Of a stretch of 49,231 nucleotides of DNA, positions 6,738-34,921 are shown one piece after another. Position 1 is the stretch's first letter, and each line of letters begins with the position of its first letter. The notes beneath the pieces are model-generated. The model saw nothing but the letters and a program-made list of their open reading frames with translations, searched no databases and was not told where the DNA came from. This DNA is from Bacilli bacterium (GTDB lineage: Bacteria; Bacillota; Bacilli; Alicyclobacillales; SLC66), in NCBI GenBank assembly GCA_013044175.1, contig JABEUY010000019.1, forward strand, positions 1 to 49,231, written 5' to 3'. Made by a program: the position numbers and the translations under genes.

Positions 6738-8006
6738 TTAGATCGCTGTAGAAACGGTGATCATCGCAGCTTTTTTTGTGCGCATTAAATCGTAGGGGCG
6801 CACGGGAGCGTCGGTTTTTACCCAGACTTTTTGCAAGGGAACATTCGATTGCATCAAACCCGTTTTGTCTTCGCTATAAATCGCAGAGATCGTTTGGGAA
6901 AAAAGTTCACGATGCGGACCGATCCATTCGATTTCTTGCCCGATGCGAAAAGCGTTACGCTGTTCGATCAGCGCAAGTTGAGTCTGTTCATCATAATCGA
7001 GAACTACGCCTGCGAAATCGACTTCGCTTACGGTGCTGGTGCTGCCATAGACTTGCGATGCGTTATTGGTATTACCATAGTAAAAACCGGTAGAAAAATC
7101 CCGCGTCGTCACTTTCATCAATTCGTCATACCAGGCAGGTTGAAAGACATACTGATCGGGTGCAGCGAGATAGGCATCGATGGCTTTTCGATAGGTTCCG
7201 ACGACCGTTGCGATGTAATGGATCGTTTTCATGCGTCCTTCGATCTTCAGACTGTATACGCCAGCTTGAAGGAGTTCAGGAATCTGTTCAATCATGCATA
7301 GATCTTTGGATCCCATGGTAAATTCATCTTGGCCACTTTGTAGTGCCATCATCGCGAGTCCTTCGCTTTCGTCCTCGTCAGCATACAACTGATAATTCCA
7401 TCGGCAAGACTGGGCACAACCACCACGATTTGCATCACGATTGGTCATATGATTGGATAACACGCAGCGTCCAGAATAGGAACTACACATCGCACCATGA
7501 ATGAAAGTTTCTAATTCTACTTTCACGTCACGGTGAATCGCAGTGATGTCGTCCATCGTGACTTCACGCGCAAGCACAACGCGCGTGACGCCTTCCTTCG
7601 CCCAAAACGTTACGGCATGCGCATTCGTGGTCGAACTTTGCGTGCTCAGATGGATTTCGAGTTCGGGTACTTCTTGACGAAATGTGGTCAAAATAGCAGG
7701 ATCAGCAACAATAGCCGCATCGACACCACAGGCGACGAGTTCTTTGCCATACTCGGCAAGACCCGATAAATCATCGTTATGTGCGATGATGTTCGTCGCT
7801 ACGTACACTTTCGCACCGTGATCATGAGCGAAGCGCACACCTTTCGCGATTTCTTCCATTGTGAAATTACCCGCTTTAGAACGCAAACCGAATTTTTGTC
7901 CCCCGATGTAGACAGCATCTGCACCGTATAAAACAGCGATTTTTAATTTCTCCAGATTGCCAGCAGGCGCGAGCAATTCGATCTGCGGCTTTTCGATCGT
8001 TTCCAT
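6738..8006 (-). CDS. trhP2: Peptidase U32 family tRNA hydroxylation protein TrhP2 (YrrO)
   Basis: A 422-residue protein, the same length as Bacillus subtilis YrrO/TrhP2. With TrhP1 it is required for 5-hydroxylation of wobble uridine 34 in tRNA (a precursor of mo5U). Despite the U32 peptidase family name this is an RNA-modification protein. The N-terminal barrel begins LLAPAGNLEKL and has DAVYIGG. The U32 signature is E-x-F-IHGAMCSSYSGRC-x-LS, with further cysteines in GGCAQSC and DLCM that could bind an Fe-S cluster. The ATG has GGGAGCGA upstream. It lies 24 nt downstream of trhP1 on the same strand. The methyltransferase partner yrrM/trmR is not adjacent here. Confidence 0.9.
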   Translation of the reverse strand: METIEKPQIELLAPAGNLEKLKIAVLYGADAVYIGGQKFGLRSKAGNFTMEEIAKGVRFAHDHGAKVYVATNIIAHNDDLSGLAEYGKELVACGVDAAIVADPAILTTFRQEVPELEIHLSTQSSTTNAHAVTFWAKEGVTRVVLAREVTMDDITAIHRDVKVELETFIHGAMCSSYSGRCVLSNHMTNRDANRGGCAQSCRWNYQLYADEDESEGLAMMALQSGQDEFTMGSKDLCMIEQIPELLQAGVYSLKIEGRMKTIHYIATVVGTYRKAIDAYLAAPDQYVFQPAWYDELMKVTTRDFSTGFYYGNTNNASQVYGSTSTVSEVDFAGVVLDYDEQTQLALIEQRNAFRIGQEIEWIGPHRELFSQTISAIYSEDKTGLMQSNVPLQKVWVKTDAPVRPYDLMRTKKAAMITVSTAI

Positions 8007-8030
8007 ATCATTTCGCTCCCGTTTTATCGA

Positions 8031-8960
8031 TTAATAAATCTGTTCTTTATAGTAAAAACCGGTTGAAAAGGGTCGATCGACAAGTTCGATCGCGTTCGCT
8101 TCTTCACGCAATGACGATAGATCAGCGTCTGTATTCTGAAGGGTCAAGCGATCGATCGCGCGTCGATACAGTCGAATCATCGTTTCGTTATACGAAGTAG
8201 TATGCAATAACGTTTCGATAAAAAGCGATTCAGGTTGTGTCGTAAGCAATTCAGGAAGGTGGTCAAGCATGCACACATCATCGTAACTCATGATATGCGT
8301 GCCATCTTCATCTTCGAAAATCGGGTATTTTTGTGCGACCCTCTTACTTTCTGTGACGAAAAGTCGCCTTGAGACGCTCGTCTCTGTTTTATCAGCAAAC
8401 GTGCTTTGGTGCCGTAAATAGCTTTCTACCAATGGACGGCGGGAGTGAAACAGGCAAGTGGGTCCTTGAATGAGCAATTGAATTTCGGCGTTGAGTTGGC
8501 TTTTAATCGTGCGGATTTCTTCAAGAGACAATTCCCCGGAAAGTACGATCCGCTTGGCTCCTTTATTCGCCCAAAAAGAGGCTGTCTGATAACTGGTCAT
8601 CGTCGTCTCGCTATGCCAGTGAAGTGTCATTGCCTTGGGGTCTAGGCCAAGTTGCTCAAGCATCACAAAAATGGCAGGATCGCCACCTTGGATCGCGTCG
8701 ACACAAAGGGCAAGAAGTTGTTCGAGATAGTGCTGTACTTCGTGAAGATGATCTTGATGAATTATGCGATTCATCGCGACATACAGTTTGCGATCGTAGC
8801 GTTTGGCAATCGTTTGCGCTTCTTGGATTTCGTCTAAGGTCAATGAAGCAGGCACGCGTAGTGCAAAATGTTCATGGCCAACGATCATCGCATCAGCACC
8901 AGCAGCAAAAAAACGTTCAACTTCGTCAAGACTGGCGGCATTCGCTAAAAGTTCCATCAT
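8031..8960 (-). CDS. trhP1: Peptidase U32 family tRNA hydroxylation protein TrhP1 (YrrN)
   Basis: A 309-codon frame equal in length to Bacillus subtilis YrrN/TrhP1, the partner of TrhP2 in wobble-uridine hydroxylation. The N-terminal half follows the U32 barrel pattern (ADAMIVGHEHFALR, DAIQGGDPAIF, KRIVLSGELS). The signature region is degenerate: GPTCLFHSRRPLVES keeps one cysteine and loses the second, as is usual for the short partner. Two ATG codons lie in tandem. An AAGGA is only 4 nt from the first (8960) but 7 nt from the second (8957), so the real start may be 8957. It is first gene of a two-gene operon with trhP2. Confidence 0.87.
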   Translation of the reverse strand: MMELLANAASLDEVERFFAAGADAMIVGHEHFALRVPASLTLDEIQEAQTIAKRYDRKLYVAMNRIIHQDHLHEVQHYLEQLLALCVDAIQGGDPAIFVMLEQLGLDPKAMTLHWHSETTMTSYQTASFWANKGAKRIVLSGELSLEEIRTIKSQLNAEIQLLIQGPTCLFHSRRPLVESYLRHQSTFADKTETSVSRRLFVTESKRVAQKYPIFEDEDGTHIMSYDDVCMLDHLPELLTTQPESLFIETLLHTTSYNETMIRLYRRAIDRLTLQNTDADLSSLREEANAIELVDRPFSTGFYYKEQIY

Positions 8961-9064
8961 ACAATCCTTATCGTTCGAAATTTCGTCACAAATTCGTCAA
9001 TCGACGATAGCCCTACCATAGCGAAATCTGCCGCGAATCACAAGAGGTATTTGTAAAATGCCAA

Positions 9065-9093
9065 TTGACAAGTGCCTAAATAACGATTATTCT
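9065..9093 (+). promoter_or_regulatory. Promoter of the VC0807-like membrane gene
   Basis: Consensus TTGACA (9065-9070), a 17-nt spacer and TATTCT (9088-9093). It is followed 5 nt later by the operator at 9099-9117. Confidence 0.7.
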
Positions 9094-9098
9094 TTTGA

Positions 9099-9117
9099 TA
9101 AATAAATAATTCATTCA
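9099..9117. promoter_or_regulatory. Second TetR-type operator
   Basis: TAAATAAATAATTCATTCA matches the 485-503 palindrome at 16 of 19 positions and sits at the same place relative to its promoter, over the expected start of transcription. On the other strand TGAATGAATTATTTATTTA resembles the FadR-type box of Bacillus. It probably makes the VC0807-like gene a target of the TetR regulator at 518-1129. Confidence 0.6.
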
Positions 9118-9193
9118 AAAATGAGCGCGATGTAAGATAGATTCATCGTCTGAAAAAGGGTTTTCTCTTGCGCTTAGAAAGAAGGTAACTCGC

Positions 9194-9805
9194 ATGCACT
9201 TGGATCGAAAAAGTTGGCGTAAAGCACTCGTTACGCTCGTCAGTCCGTTTCTCGTTTATCTTCTTGCCAAAAAGTTTGGCGTACATGAAGTGGAAGCCTT
9301 AATGTTAACTGCCGTTCCAGCCGTTCTTGTCACGTTCGTTCCGCTATGGAAAGAAAGAAAACTCAATGTGTTTGGTCTGTTGATTCTCATCGGTATCGTT
9401 GTACGCTTGACCGTTGCGATCATCAGTGGGAATCCAAGGATGACGTTATTAAGCGATGCTTTTGTGTTACTTGGCTTTGCTTTCGTTTGCGTCGAATCGA
9501 TGATGATTGGAAGACCGCTGATGTACTATTTCCTACGTCAATTGCGACAATCGATCGGGCGATCGATCACATCATCGTTGTGGCAACAACCCTTAGAAGG
9601 GAAAAAGCAAAAGATCTTCATGAAGATCACGGCAGTTTGGGCCATTGGACTCGTTCTTGGCGCGTTGATTCAGGCAATCGTCATCTTTCACGTCGCAGTA
9701 AGTTTCGCTTTACTTATCGATCATGGTCTTGAAATCTTGGTGATGCTGATTTTTGGTCTATGGACGAGAAACTATCTTGCTATGCACCGCGAGAAAGAAA
9801 TGTAG
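9194..9805 (+). CDS. VC0807-family integral membrane protein
   Basis: A 203-residue membrane protein with about five or six hydrophobic segments (for instance residues 13-25, 35-50, 58-75, 83-102, 145-166, 172-195). The layout and motifs such as SPFLVYLLAKKFGV and ISGNPRMTLLSDAF fit the VC0807/intracellular-septation-like family. Function is not established: related genes are often found under TetR-type control, which fits a transport or membrane-stress role. Start ATG has GAAGG (9181-9185) 8 nt upstream. The promoter and a shared TetR operator lie at 9065-9117. It stands alone; the next gene is 112 nt downstream with its own leader. Confidence 0.75.
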   Translation: MHLDRKSWRKALVTLVSPFLVYLLAKKFGVHEVEALMLTAVPAVLVTFVPLWKERKLNVFGLLILIGIVVRLTVAIISGNPRMTLLSDAFVLLGFAFVCVESMMIGRPLMYYFLRQLRQSIGRSITSSLWQQPLEGKKQKIFMKITAVWAIGLVLGALIQAIVIFHVAVSFALLIDHGLEILVMLIFGLWTRNYLAMHREKEM

Positions 9806-9848
9806 ATAACGCCGATTAAAGAAGCTGGAATTAATGGGGGTGCATAAG

Positions 9849-9896
9849 TAGACGTCAATCGAATGTTCATCTTGTCTTTTCGAGGATTGCCGTCTA
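9849..9896. repeat. Inverted repeat in leader of the HD-GYP gene
   Basis: TAGACGTCAATC (9849-9860) and GATTGCCGTCTA (9885-9896) are complementary at 11 of 12 positions, separated by 24 nt. It ends 21 nt before the probable start codon and could be a regulator site or an RNA hairpin. No known riboswitch motif is recognised. Confidence 0.4.
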
Positions 9897-9917
9897 GTGT
9901 ATGTATAGGTGATCAAG

Positions 9918-11468
9918 ATGACTTCGTATCAAAAACTTCTTCGCATGATGATTCGTAATTATATCGGCGGCTCGATTCTTGCGGTCTTTGGTGTAGGTGG
10001 CGTACTGATCTTTTCGACATTGTCGATTTCGGCAAGAGAAATTCGCTTAGTTGTGCTTACGCTTTTTATCTCACTTTTCATGATGGCTGGCTTTGAGATG
10101 CTCGCATTTCGGTATCATCTCAGACCGATTCGACAAGCGTTTATCGAAGAAAGTCCATCAAAGGAAACGTTGCAAAAGGCTTTTTTGCAAAGTCATCGCT
10201 TACCGACGTTAACGTTGATTAGAATTATTGGGCCACACTGGTTAGGGATAACGTTGCCCGGCGTGGGAATAACGGTCGTTGAAATCCAAGTTGGTTGGTT
10301 GCATTTTCCTTATGAATATGTCTTTTTTGCTTTTCTTGGCTCGATACTGATAGCGGCTATGCATGGGATGATCGAATTTTTCATGACAATGCGATCAACG
10401 TTACCGCTCATTGTTATGCTTGAGCAAAAAATGTTCGAATGCTATGGTGAACGTCCGACGTTACATGGTCGTGTCATCGTGCCGATTCGACGTAAATTTC
10501 AAGTGAGTATGATCGTTGTTGGTACATTTCCACTCTTGCTTTTTAGTCTAGCGTCGCAGATTCATCTTGCGCATTCCGCGGTCGCTACGGCGACGAATTA
10601 TTGGCAATGGGCAGGCATCATTCTCGTGATCGGCATTGCCTTTTCTCTATTTGCCTCTTGGTTAATCAGTGACAGTATTGCAAATCCGATCGCAGATCTT
10701 TCTCATCGATTGCGTGCTGTGGAAAAAGGGAATTACGATGTCATCGCGTCAGAACAATACTCCGATGAGTTTTCGCAGTTGGTACGAGGCTTTAACTTGA
10801 TGGTCGAAGGGTTAATCCATCGAGATGCGCTAAATGCGCGATTGATCGACAGTTATTTTACGACGCTTGCTGCAACGCTCGATGCGCGAGATCCGTATAC
10901 TGCAGGTCATTCGATTCGCGTCGCGCATCTTTCGGTAGGTATTGCGGCGTATATGGGGTTATCCGAAGAAGTGCGCTCTGTGATTCGACGTTCTGGGTGG
11001 CTTCATGATATTGGTAAGATCGGCATTCGCGACGAGATCCTTCTTAAAGAAGGGAAATTGACGAACCAAGAGTATGAAGTGATGAAACAGCATCCTGTGA
11101 TCGGGGAAGCCATTCTCTTATCGGTACAACCTTCGGATTATATGTTGCCCTTGCTTCCTGGTGTGCGGTGGCATCATGAACGTTATGATGGTAAAGGCTA
11201 TCCTGATGGGTTACAAGGGGATGAGATTCCGCTGATCGCGCGTATTATGGCGGTTGCCGATGCTTTTGATGCGATCACTTCCGATCGCCCTTATCGAAAA
11301 GGGGCGCCGATTGAAAAGGCGATCACCATTTTAGAGGAGGGTAAAGGCACGCAGTGGGATCCGCACTATGCGCAGGCGTTAATCGATTGGATCACAGCCG
11401 ATCCGATTATGTTTGCAGCCGATTTGCAAGCTTCTCCATCGCAAGTCGCTTTGCTTTTAGCCCAATGA
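9918..11468 (+). CDS. Membrane HAMP/HD-GYP c-di-GMP phosphodiesterase
   Basis: A 516-residue membrane protein hydrolysing c-di-GMP. About 250 N-terminal residues contain around six hydrophobic segments. A HAMP linker follows (about 245-300, from SDSIANPIADL to NLMVEGL), then HD-GYP (about 310-500). The HD pair is at residues 363-364 in HDIGKIG. The GYP motif is at 427-429 in HHERYDGKGYPDG, followed by VADAFDAITSDRPYR. All metal ligands expected for an active enzyme are visible. The frame is open from GTG 9909, but ATG 9918 is better placed behind AGGTG (9907-9911). It opposes the diguanylate cyclase 3 kb upstream in function. Confidence 0.92.
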   Translation: MTSYQKLLRMMIRNYIGGSILAVFGVGGVLIFSTLSISAREIRLVVLTLFISLFMMAGFEMLAFRYHLRPIRQAFIEESPSKETLQKAFLQSHRLPTLTLIRIIGPHWLGITLPGVGITVVEIQVGWLHFPYEYVFFAFLGSILIAAMHGMIEFFMTMRSTLPLIVMLEQKMFECYGERPTLHGRVIVPIRRKFQVSMIVVGTFPLLLFSLASQIHLAHSAVATATNYWQWAGIILVIGIAFSLFASWLISDSIANPIADLSHRLRAVEKGNYDVIASEQYSDEFSQLVRGFNLMVEGLIHRDALNARLIDSYFTTLAATLDARDPYTAGHSIRVAHLSVGIAAYMGLSEEVRSVIRRSGWLHDIGKIGIRDEILLKEGKLTNQEYEVMKQHPVIGEAILLSVQPSDYMLPLLPGVRWHHERYDGKGYPDGLQGDEIPLIARIMAVADAFDAITSDRPYRKGAPIEKAITILEEGKGTQWDPHYAQALIDWITADPIMFAADLQASPSQVALLLAQ

Positions 11469-33091: not shown

Positions 33092-33138
33092 TTAACAAGT
33101 GTTAATTAAACTATAACAATTGTTAAGCGTCTTGTAAA
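33092..33138 (-). promoter_or_regulatory. psuKG promoter with two phased palindromic operators
   Basis: On the minus strand: TTTACA (33133-33138), a 17-nt spacer and TATAGT (33110-33115) with an extended TGT. Palindromes TTAACAAGTGTTAA (33092-33105) and ATAACAATTGTTAA (33113-33126) have centres 21 bp apart (two helical turns). One covers the -10 and spacer, the other the start of transcription. This is a repressor layout. Confidence 0.75.
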
Positions 33139-33160: not shown

Positions 33161-33190
33161 TAAAGGTAATTAAGGCGAAGGGGGAACCGT

Positions 33191-33946
33191 ATGGCGGCAA
33201 CGATAGAATCTGTCGAAAAGGTAGTGCAAGAGAACTACGTCCCAGAATTTCATTATCTCAAGTATGATACTACGCCTTTTCAACCGTTTACCAAAGATCT
33301 TGCTAGCGCAAAAGGCGCATTGATCACAACAGGTGGTGTTTTTTTAAAAGGTGAACCGCCTTTTCAAGATAACTATGGCCTTGGCGATCCGTCTTATCGA
33401 GAAATTCCGAGTGATGTCGATACGAAAAAACTGATGCATTATCATGAACACTATGATCATACGAATGCATCGAAAGACATCAATTGTATTTTCCCCATAG
33501 AAAGAATGCGCCAACTCGCAAAAGAAGGTACGATCGGTCCTTTGGCAGAAACTTTTTATAGTTTTATGGGCTTTGTTCCGATTGCACACCCACTTTTGAC
33601 GAGAACGGCACCTCAGGTAGCCCGTAAATTAAAAAAAGAGTTGGTTGACTATGTGCTGATAGCACCTGTCTGACCCGTTTGCCAACAGACGGCCAGTTTG
33701 GTCGCTCGTGTGATTGAACAAGCAGGTATTCCAACGATGACAGTAACCATGATGAAAGATGTCGCTTTGGCAGTGAAACCACCGAGAAGTATGTATCTCA
33801 AATTTCCGTTTGGCAGTCCTATGGGAAGACCTGGTGATGTGCAAAAACAAACCGCCGTATTAAAAGCGATGCTCGATGGTCTAATAACCATCGATACGCC
33901 TGGAATGATTCTTGAGCCCTCCTTGTCGTATGGTGGCGATGCCTAA
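33191..33946 (+). CDS. GrdB-family selenoprotein with in-frame UGA (glycine/betaine/D-proline reductase B-like)
   Basis: A single frame runs from ATG 33191 to TAA 33944-33946, interrupted only by TGA at 33671-33673. Reading TGA as selenocysteine gives 251 residues with Sec at position 161 in APV-U-PVC, a UxxC redox motif (Cys164). Homologous families carry Cys in the same place (PVCPVC). Protein similarity continues across the TGA: GALITTGGVFLKGEPPF, HYHEHYDHTNASKDINCIFP and SFMGFVP before it; QQTASLVARVIEQAGIPT and FPFGSPMGRPGD after it. A SECIS-like hairpin lies 21 nt downstream of the TGA. Related proteins act as thiol/selenol reductases, but the substrate is unknown and no GrdA/PrdA partner is near. 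If the cell lacks Sec machinery, this would be a broken gene. Confidence 0.85.
33685..33711 (+). promoter_or_regulatory. SECIS-like hairpin for UGA recoding
   Basis: The core stem CGGCC (33690-33694) / GGTCG (33700-33704) has one G-U pair and loop AGTTT with G at the second loop position. ACA and GA pair further out with GTGT-side bases through two bulges. The loop begins 21 nt after the TGA, inside the distance described for bacterial SECIS elements (about 16-37 nt). Confidence 0.65.
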
Positions 33947-33947
33947 A

Positions 33948-33980
33948 AGCAAAAAACACCCCTTAGGGGTGTTTTTTGCT
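33948..33980. terminator. Bidirectional terminator
   Basis: AGCAAAAAACACCCC, loop TTA, GGGGTGTTTTTTGCT (33948-33980): 15 bp. A-runs and T-runs on both sides make it work in both directions, serving the GrdB-like gene and the HD-GYP gene that ends here. Confidence 0.92.
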
Positions 33981-34921
33981 TATTCTACGATGCGTACAAT
34001 TTTAATTCCTGTCATTTGGGAAAGGTCGATGACGGTTTGTCCTACTTCAATCATCGGTAACGTAGGGGCTTGTGGTGAAATGACTTTGATCACACCTCGC
34101 TCGCCATTGGACAATTCGACATGCGTGCCGACGAGCTCATTCATCATCATGCGAAGAAATGTTAAAGTGACGAGTGGATCAAACATCCCGAACATATCGT
34201 GATGTAATTTAACCAGGATTTCATAAAAAGGGATTTGATCTCGATAGACGCGCATACTTGACATGGCATGAAAGCTATCGATGACGGAAACGATTTTGGA
34301 TAAGGGATGAATTTCATCATCTTTCTTGTTATACGGATACCCTGATCCATTGAGGCGCTCATGATGTTCGAGCGCGATTCGTGCCTGAACTTCCGGCGCA
34401 GCGCCTGTGCGCTCGATCAATTCATAACCGTACACGGTATGGCGCTTCATCTCTTCGTATTCGGCATGGGTCAGCGAAGTCGGTTTGTTTAAAATTTCAT
34501 CAGGAATACGCAGTTTGCCGATATCGTGTAACACGGCGCCTTGCAAAAGATCTGTCTGATCCTCGAAAGACAGATTCAAAGCCCTACCGAGTTTTAAAGA
34601 CAAAATGGCAACGGCAATACTGTGTTGGCTTGTGTAATCATCTTTTTGTCCCAATTGTAAGATCAGATTAAAAATGCCTGGTTCGCTTGACATCATTTGC
34701 ACAGCCGGAAACACGACATCTTGAAGAGGTTGAATCAAGATACGATTGTTCTTGCGAATTTCTTTCAGCACTTTTGTCATTTCGGAAGTAGCTAAATGAA
34801 GTGTCATCAGCGCCGATTCCGTCGGTGACACATCGGTACTGGTAGGAGAGAAGGGAACATCACTCATAAAATGCTTATAGTGTGAGTGGCTTTCTTTTGA
34901 AGATTCAAATTCGTTACGCAT
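33980..34921 (-). CDS. Soluble HD-GYP domain phosphodiesterase
   Basis: A 313-residue protein without membrane segments. The N-terminal 90 residues are a family-typical helical region. HD-GYP (about 95-260) has the HD pair at residues 132-133 in HDIGKLRIP and GYP at 194-196 in HHERLNGSGYP, then DSFHAMSSMRVYR. A small C-terminal beta domain (THVELSNGERGVI) follows, as in many Bacillales HD-GYP proteins. Most likely it hydrolyses c-di-GMP. The frame is open to 34990, but the best promoter (34961-34990) lies inside that extension. GAGGAGG at 34933-34939 points to ATG 34921. Confidence 0.9.
   Translation of the reverse strand: MRNEFESSKESHSHYKHFMSDVPFSPTSTDVSPTESALMTLHLATSEMTKVLKEIRKNNRILIQPLQDVVFPAVQMMSSEPGIFNLILQLGQKDDYTSQHSIAVAILSLKLGRALNLSFEDQTDLLQGAVLHDIGKLRIPDEILNKPTSLTHAEYEEMKRHTVYGYELIERTGAAPEVQARIALEHHERLNGSGYPYNKKDDEIHPLSKIVSVIDSFHAMSSMRVYRDQIPFYEILVKLHHDMFGMFDPLVTLTFLRMMMNELVGTHVELSNGERGVIKVISPQAPTLPMIEVGQTVIDLSQMTGIKIVRIVE

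Follow-up and report, generated by a model that had tools for sequence, protein, structure and literature searches.

The locus raises the question of whether a reading frame interrupted by a single TGA codon is a broken gene or a selenoprotein gene, and, in the latter case, what kind of protein it would encode. The frame lies in a stretch of 49,231 nucleotides (the window) from a Bacilli bacterium, whose draft genome comprises 2.54 Mb in 156 contigs and is 91.6% complete. The initial annotation had proposed a selenoprotein of the GrdB family beside a pseudouridine operon. The best explanation, given a probability of roughly 0.85, is a stand-alone selenocysteine (Sec)-containing reductase of the PrdB/GrdB family. 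The features of the locus are collected in Table 1.

Table 1. Features of the interrupted reading frame and its surroundings, in window coordinates
Feature	Position	Strand	Remarks
Two operator-like palindromes: TTAACA-AG-TGTTAA (33092-33105) and TAACAATTGTTA (33114-33125)	33092..33125	.	Between the divergent HTH-kinase and predicted selenoprotein genes
Shine-Dalgarno-like stretch GAAGGGGG	33176..33183 (approximate)	+	5' of the ATG; from the sequence
Predicted selenoprotein gene, 251 residues, orphan PrdB/GrdB-family reductase (putative)	33191..33946	+	End includes the TAA stop
In-frame UGA, predicted Sec, residue 161, first of U-P-V-C	33671..33673	+	TGA in relatives; Cys in Pseudomonadota homologues
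Codon for the second Cys (C164) of UxxC	33680..33682	+	Unvarying in 41 aligned homologues
Putative SECIS hairpin, 5-bp stem CAGAC/GTTTG, loop GGCCA	33686..33700	+	12 nt after the UGA; compensatory changes, 10 distinct sequences
Terminator-like perfect 17-bp inverted repeat with T-run	33947..33981	.	Common to the convergent HD-domain gene

The reading frame

The frame runs from ATG to TAA and is otherwise undamaged, the TGA at codon 161 being its only internal break, as initially annotated. The protein context of this codon is ...LIAPV-U-PVC-QQTASLVARV... Family-like sequence had been claimed on both sides of the TGA, and this was borne out by consecutive stretches of one profile: the values are 1.1e-29 for the piece before the TGA (positions 20-144 of the NCBIfam PrdB model) and 2e-10 for the piece after it (positions 151-228). 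Since GAAGGGGG precedes the ATG and the 17-bp repeat follows the TAA, the transcription unit seems to end past the full frame and not past the TGA. A standard ORF caller would report such a gene as broken or split in two. The repeat itself has a 1-nt centre, lies between the frame and a convergent HD-domain gene and is a candidate bidirectional terminator.

Sec-decoding machinery of the genome

Absence of the Sec genes would have spoken against the reading proposed by the initial annotation, which had suggested a search for selA, selB, selC and selD. All four are present and the selenoprotein reading was not refuted. The genome contains selA (2.5e-148), selB (404 bits, over the cut-off) and one tRNA-Sec gene above the cut-off (65.9 bits, anticodon UCA). 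The selD gene adjoins selA and scores 405 bits as SelD, and its full length is obtained only if an in-frame TGA is read as Sec (SGUGCK). Judged by its gene content, the Sec pathway is complete and the organism is able to decode UGA as selenocysteine. As both selD and the PrdB-like gene need UGA decoding, two independent genes depend on it. The selD gene is found at 396-1460 on the minus strand of locus L001 (genome contig C85); a standard ORF caller starts it at a downstream TTG and its active site is lost.

Other selenoprotein candidates were sought in the same genome. Formate dehydrogenase, peroxiredoxin-family and DsbA-family matches carry no in-frame stop, and an AhpD-family (CMD) protein was looked for in the genome and not found. 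With these families checked, it is conceivable but rather doubtful that Sec decoding in a 2.5 Mb genome is kept mainly for one orphan reductase (besides SelD), which would carry out an undescribed selenol-dependent reduction with no pyruvoyl partner.

A covarying hairpin downstream of the UGA

The gene of the window was aligned with ten other orphan homologues; the alignment is free of gaps from the UGA onward and 10 of its 11 rows are distinct. The stem at 33686-33700 (columns 16-20 with 26-30) is paired in 98% of cells, and in seven cells both sides have changed. Its third pair varies between A-U, G-C, C-G and G-U, and its fourth between U-A, A-U and G-C. The covariation score and paired fraction of this stem were reached by none of the 500 shuffles, and pairing was lost when the partner was shifted by 1-3 columns. 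The putative SECIS hairpin is thus conserved by covariation in the alignment.

This is not the hairpin originally proposed. That one (CGGCC-AGTTT-GGTCG, 33690-33704), described as starting 21 nt downstream, is not conserved: it is 68% paired in relatives, the same as in shuffles. The minimum free energy hairpin directly after the UGA was likewise rejected as a SECIS (60% paired, not above shuffles).

Folded in isolation, the window RNA preferred a 7-bp hairpin that overlaps the conserved one and follows the UGA directly. Folding of 33683-33703, which omits the 9 nt next to the UGA, gave the conserved 5-bp hairpin. A ribosome stationed at the UGA would cover the first nucleotides and have to melt the 7-bp hairpin, leaving the conserved one. 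The window's own hairpin at 33686-33700 is modest, at -4.4 kcal/mol.

Homologues and exchange of Sec and Cys

Of the 61 genomes searched in the source organism's family, order and class, 10 (the source genome included) contain a homologue. All nine matches that span the codon contain one in-frame TGA, and the tenth ends at a contig end. SelA is present in each of the ten homologue-containing genomes and none of the 31 SelA-less genomes has a homologue (Fisher p = 3e-4); another 20 of the 61 have SelA and no PrdB-like homologue. Among 398 genomes of the phylum, the closest homologues are 43%, 40% and 39% identical, each with one TGA. Their identity of 43% or less means that function is not transferable from them.

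Cys-containing homologues were collected with a pattern that requires Cys, and the alignment-based contig scan that used it therefore shows Cys homologues only. It found 490 relatives, the best 80 of which are mainly from Pseudomonadota; the motif CPVCHQT occurs, for example, in Bradyrhizobium, Afipia and Rhodopseudomonas. A contig scan with a single protein as the query gave no relatives. Over 41 aligned sequences the invariant columns are U/C161, C164, D96, P102, R173, E176, T182, R199 and G208. Selenoproteins are classically recognised by such alternation of Sec and Cys at a single site. The presence of either residue at position 161 in all aligned homologues supports the initial description of a UxxC selenoprotein with its TGA in place of a redox Cys.

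A pseudogene would also present an in-frame TGA: a Cys codon (TGT or TGC) mutated to TGA would leave a truncated protein of 160 residues, and both the single base that separates TGA from TGC and TGT and the Cys found at the same codon in proteobacterial homologues agree with this. Such a decay is nevertheless extremely unlikely in a genome with the full Sec machinery, given that relatives throughout the phylum also carry TGA at this codon and that the hairpin is conserved, with compensatory changes. The frame is also otherwise undamaged, its product has a confident predicted fold and the terminator-like repeat comes after the TAA. On this sequence evidence the gene is almost certainly a real selenoprotein gene.

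Family placement and the partner subunit

The joined read-through protein matches NCBIfam PrdB at 8e-47 and GrdB proper at 2e-18. The initial assignment to the GrdB family was therefore right as to relatedness, but the protein is much nearer PrdB. It passes the cut-offs of Pfam GRDB (PF07355; 57.5 bits against 22) and NCBIfam TIGR01918 (73.9 bits against 65.45), which covers the glycine/betaine/sarcosine/D-proline selenoprotein B subfamily. Its scores fall below the cut-offs of the PrdB equivalog TIGR04483 (159.7 bits against 300) and of the GrdB equivalog TIGR01917 (66.4 bits against 602, with 251 residues against about 431).

In a maximum-likelihood tree the window protein joins the phylum's other orphan Sec proteins (UPLC/UPIC), supported at 89/86. 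The prd-type proteins (UGTCHRS) group with UPLC proteins of the source genome's family and order (99/98), and the proteobacterial Cys homologues form a separate clade (99/89). The window protein sits on a long branch (1.16), which makes its precise position uncertain. By its profile matches and tree position, the protein is a PrdB/GrdB-family member that is closer to PrdB and falls in an orphan UPxC group lacking PrdA.

Sister genomes of the same family (loci L004-L010) encode a different orphan PrdB-like selenoprotein with the motif UPLCHRT, to which the window protein does not look orthologous. These proteins are nearer true PrdB in the tree and have no PrdA nearby, and their genes have a very regular hairpin after the UGA (GAACCGT-GGTC-ACGGTTC).

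Neither the window nor the rest of the genome yielded a PF09338 protein (PrdA/GrdE-type subunit). The model recognises PrdA of relatives, and in the relatives with a prd operon PrdA lies beside prdB. Because control genomes gave no match either and the draft is 91.6% complete, the absence of this subunit is likely, not proven. The earlier remark that grd and prd partners are missing from the surroundings is supported and extends to PF09338 in the rest of the assembly.

The incomplete draft would also accommodate a true D-proline reductase PrdB whose prdA lies in the missing part of the assembly, and PrdB is indeed the best profile. This is very unlikely, as the score falls well short of the equivalog cut-off, the motif is UPVCQQT and not the UGTCHRS of prd-operon proteins, and the protein falls outside the prdA-linked clade. 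Relatives with the operon carry PrdA next to prdB, and no PF09338 protein was found in the source genome.

Gene neighbourhoods

Near the three closest homologues (39-43% identity) there are thiol/redox genes, each found in two or all three neighbourhoods. Each of the three has a gene for a PNPOx-fold protein nearby; a 4Fe-4S protein and a Crp-type regulator are encoded near homologues L066 and L068, and a DsbA-like gene with an in-frame TGA in a UPFC motif lies near L066 and L067. L068 additionally has a MerR-type regulator close by. These thiol-redox genes hint at where the substrate might be sought. The TGA of the DsbA-like gene is at 10373 in L067 and at 1239 in L066, apparently marking a second selenoprotein in that neighbourhood; the L066 copy has a further TAG 22 codons past the TGA.

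The neighbourhoods of Cys homologues show no consistent partner and are dominated by Bradyrhizobium synteny. In several Bradyrhizobium (L083 and others, about 7100-10300) the Cys homologue lies near aldoxime dehydratase-like and nitrilase-like genes and one like an AraC-type regulator, all named by eye from sequence.

In the window, a psuG-like gene (PF04227) and an HTH-PfkB kinase gene are divergent from the predicted selenoprotein gene across a gap of 111 bp. The gap contains two copies of TAACAANTGTTA, 21 bp apart from centre to centre, with no other copy in the 2.54 Mb genome. The kinase has an N-terminal HTH, and the palindromes are probably operators of this pseudouridine kinase-like gene; they might also affect the selenoprotein gene. 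A tmRNA gene is found elsewhere in the window, at 13-395 (Rfam RF00023, 196.9 bits).

The pseudouridine genes noted in the initial annotation are thus a real divergent neighbour here, but in no relative examined do psu genes lie beside the selenoprotein gene. No function was therefore built on this adjacency. A selenoprotein of nucleoside or pseudouridine metabolism, co-regulated with the psuK/psuG-like genes, would fit the genome-unique palindrome, present twice in the shared intergenic region, and the HTH of the neighbouring kinase. It is an improbable reading, since the arrangement is not shared by the relatives and the palindromes may serve the kinase operon only.

Predicted structure and possible mechanism

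The read-through protein is predicted as one confident domain (pLDDT 93.8, pTM 0.92). In the model, strand 154-158 is followed by helix 162-177, and Sec161 and Cys164 lie where this helix begins. A sequence search of solved structures returned only a match of 41 residues to a de novo design, judged to be due to chance. The fold search gave no confident match, with a best Foldseek E of 9e-3 and VIA-align Z of 8.7 or less, in the range common for alpha/beta proteins.

A role as a stand-alone thiol/selenol reductase can be proposed tentatively from the motif and the family. By established biology, SelB and Sec-tRNA(Sec) would bind the hairpin beginning 12 nt past the stop codon, and the UGA would be translated as Sec161. 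The selenolate might then attack an electrophilic bond of a small substrate, in a reductive cleavage or a disulfide-like exchange. Cys164 would resolve the selenenyl adduct and a thioredoxin-type dithiol would recycle the enzyme. The D-proline and glycine reductase mechanism needs the pyruvoyl (carbonyl) group of a PrdA/GrdE-type partner. As no such subunit was found, this mechanism is probably not used.

Comparison with known systems

Paper searches returned nothing on Alicyclobacillus-type selenoproteins and no function or demonstrated reaction for stand-alone PrdB-like proteins. The locus is less new than was implied at first, as many UxxC selenoproteins of the PrdB family had already been described in 2005 and 2008 (PMC1088965, PMC2398784). 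In the Sargasso Sea they ranked third in abundance among known families, with 42 genes (PMC1088965), and 235 were counted in the GOS survey (PMC2398784). Reviews of 2022 and 2026 include the UxxC-containing PrdB of D-proline reductase (PMC9312934, PMC13188914).

The window protein shares with PrdB, the selenium subunit of D-proline reductase (TIGR04483), a length of about 240-250 residues, homology over nearly the full length, UxxC in the same columns and a UGA followed by a hairpin. It differs in having UPVCQQT in place of UGTCHRS, in its identity of 31-38% to PrdA-linked proteins, in scoring below the equivalog cut-off, and in that no PrdA or prd operon was found with its gene. GrdB, GrdF and GrdH (selenoprotein B of glycine, sarcosine and betaine reductase; PF07355, TIGR01917/TIGR01918) also have U in UxxC, and the window protein is homologous to roughly residues 192-400 of GrdB. 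About 190 residues at the N-terminus of GrdB have no counterpart in it. A GrdE-type subunit was looked for across the genome and not found, and there is no grdA, grdC or grdD near the gene. The proteobacterial Cys homologues (Bradyrhizobium, Afipia, Rhodopseudomonas and others) are likewise stand-alone genes of the same motif and length, about 28-35% identical, but with Cys in place of Sec. The position of U-P-V-C at a helix start after a strand in the predicted model would resemble that of dithiol redox sites.

The marine PrdB selenoproteins belong to the same named family and contain UxxC, a likeness in family name and motif. They are metagenome fragments (PMC1088965, PMC2398784), whereas here the genome context is known. 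Marine metagenomes have yielded UxxC selenoproteins of the PrdB family since 2005, and the window gene adds a well-supported member, a further case of the orphan PrdB-like selenoproteins that are abundant there. The gene stands alone, apparently has no partner and comes from a bacterium whose predicted Sec pathway is complete.
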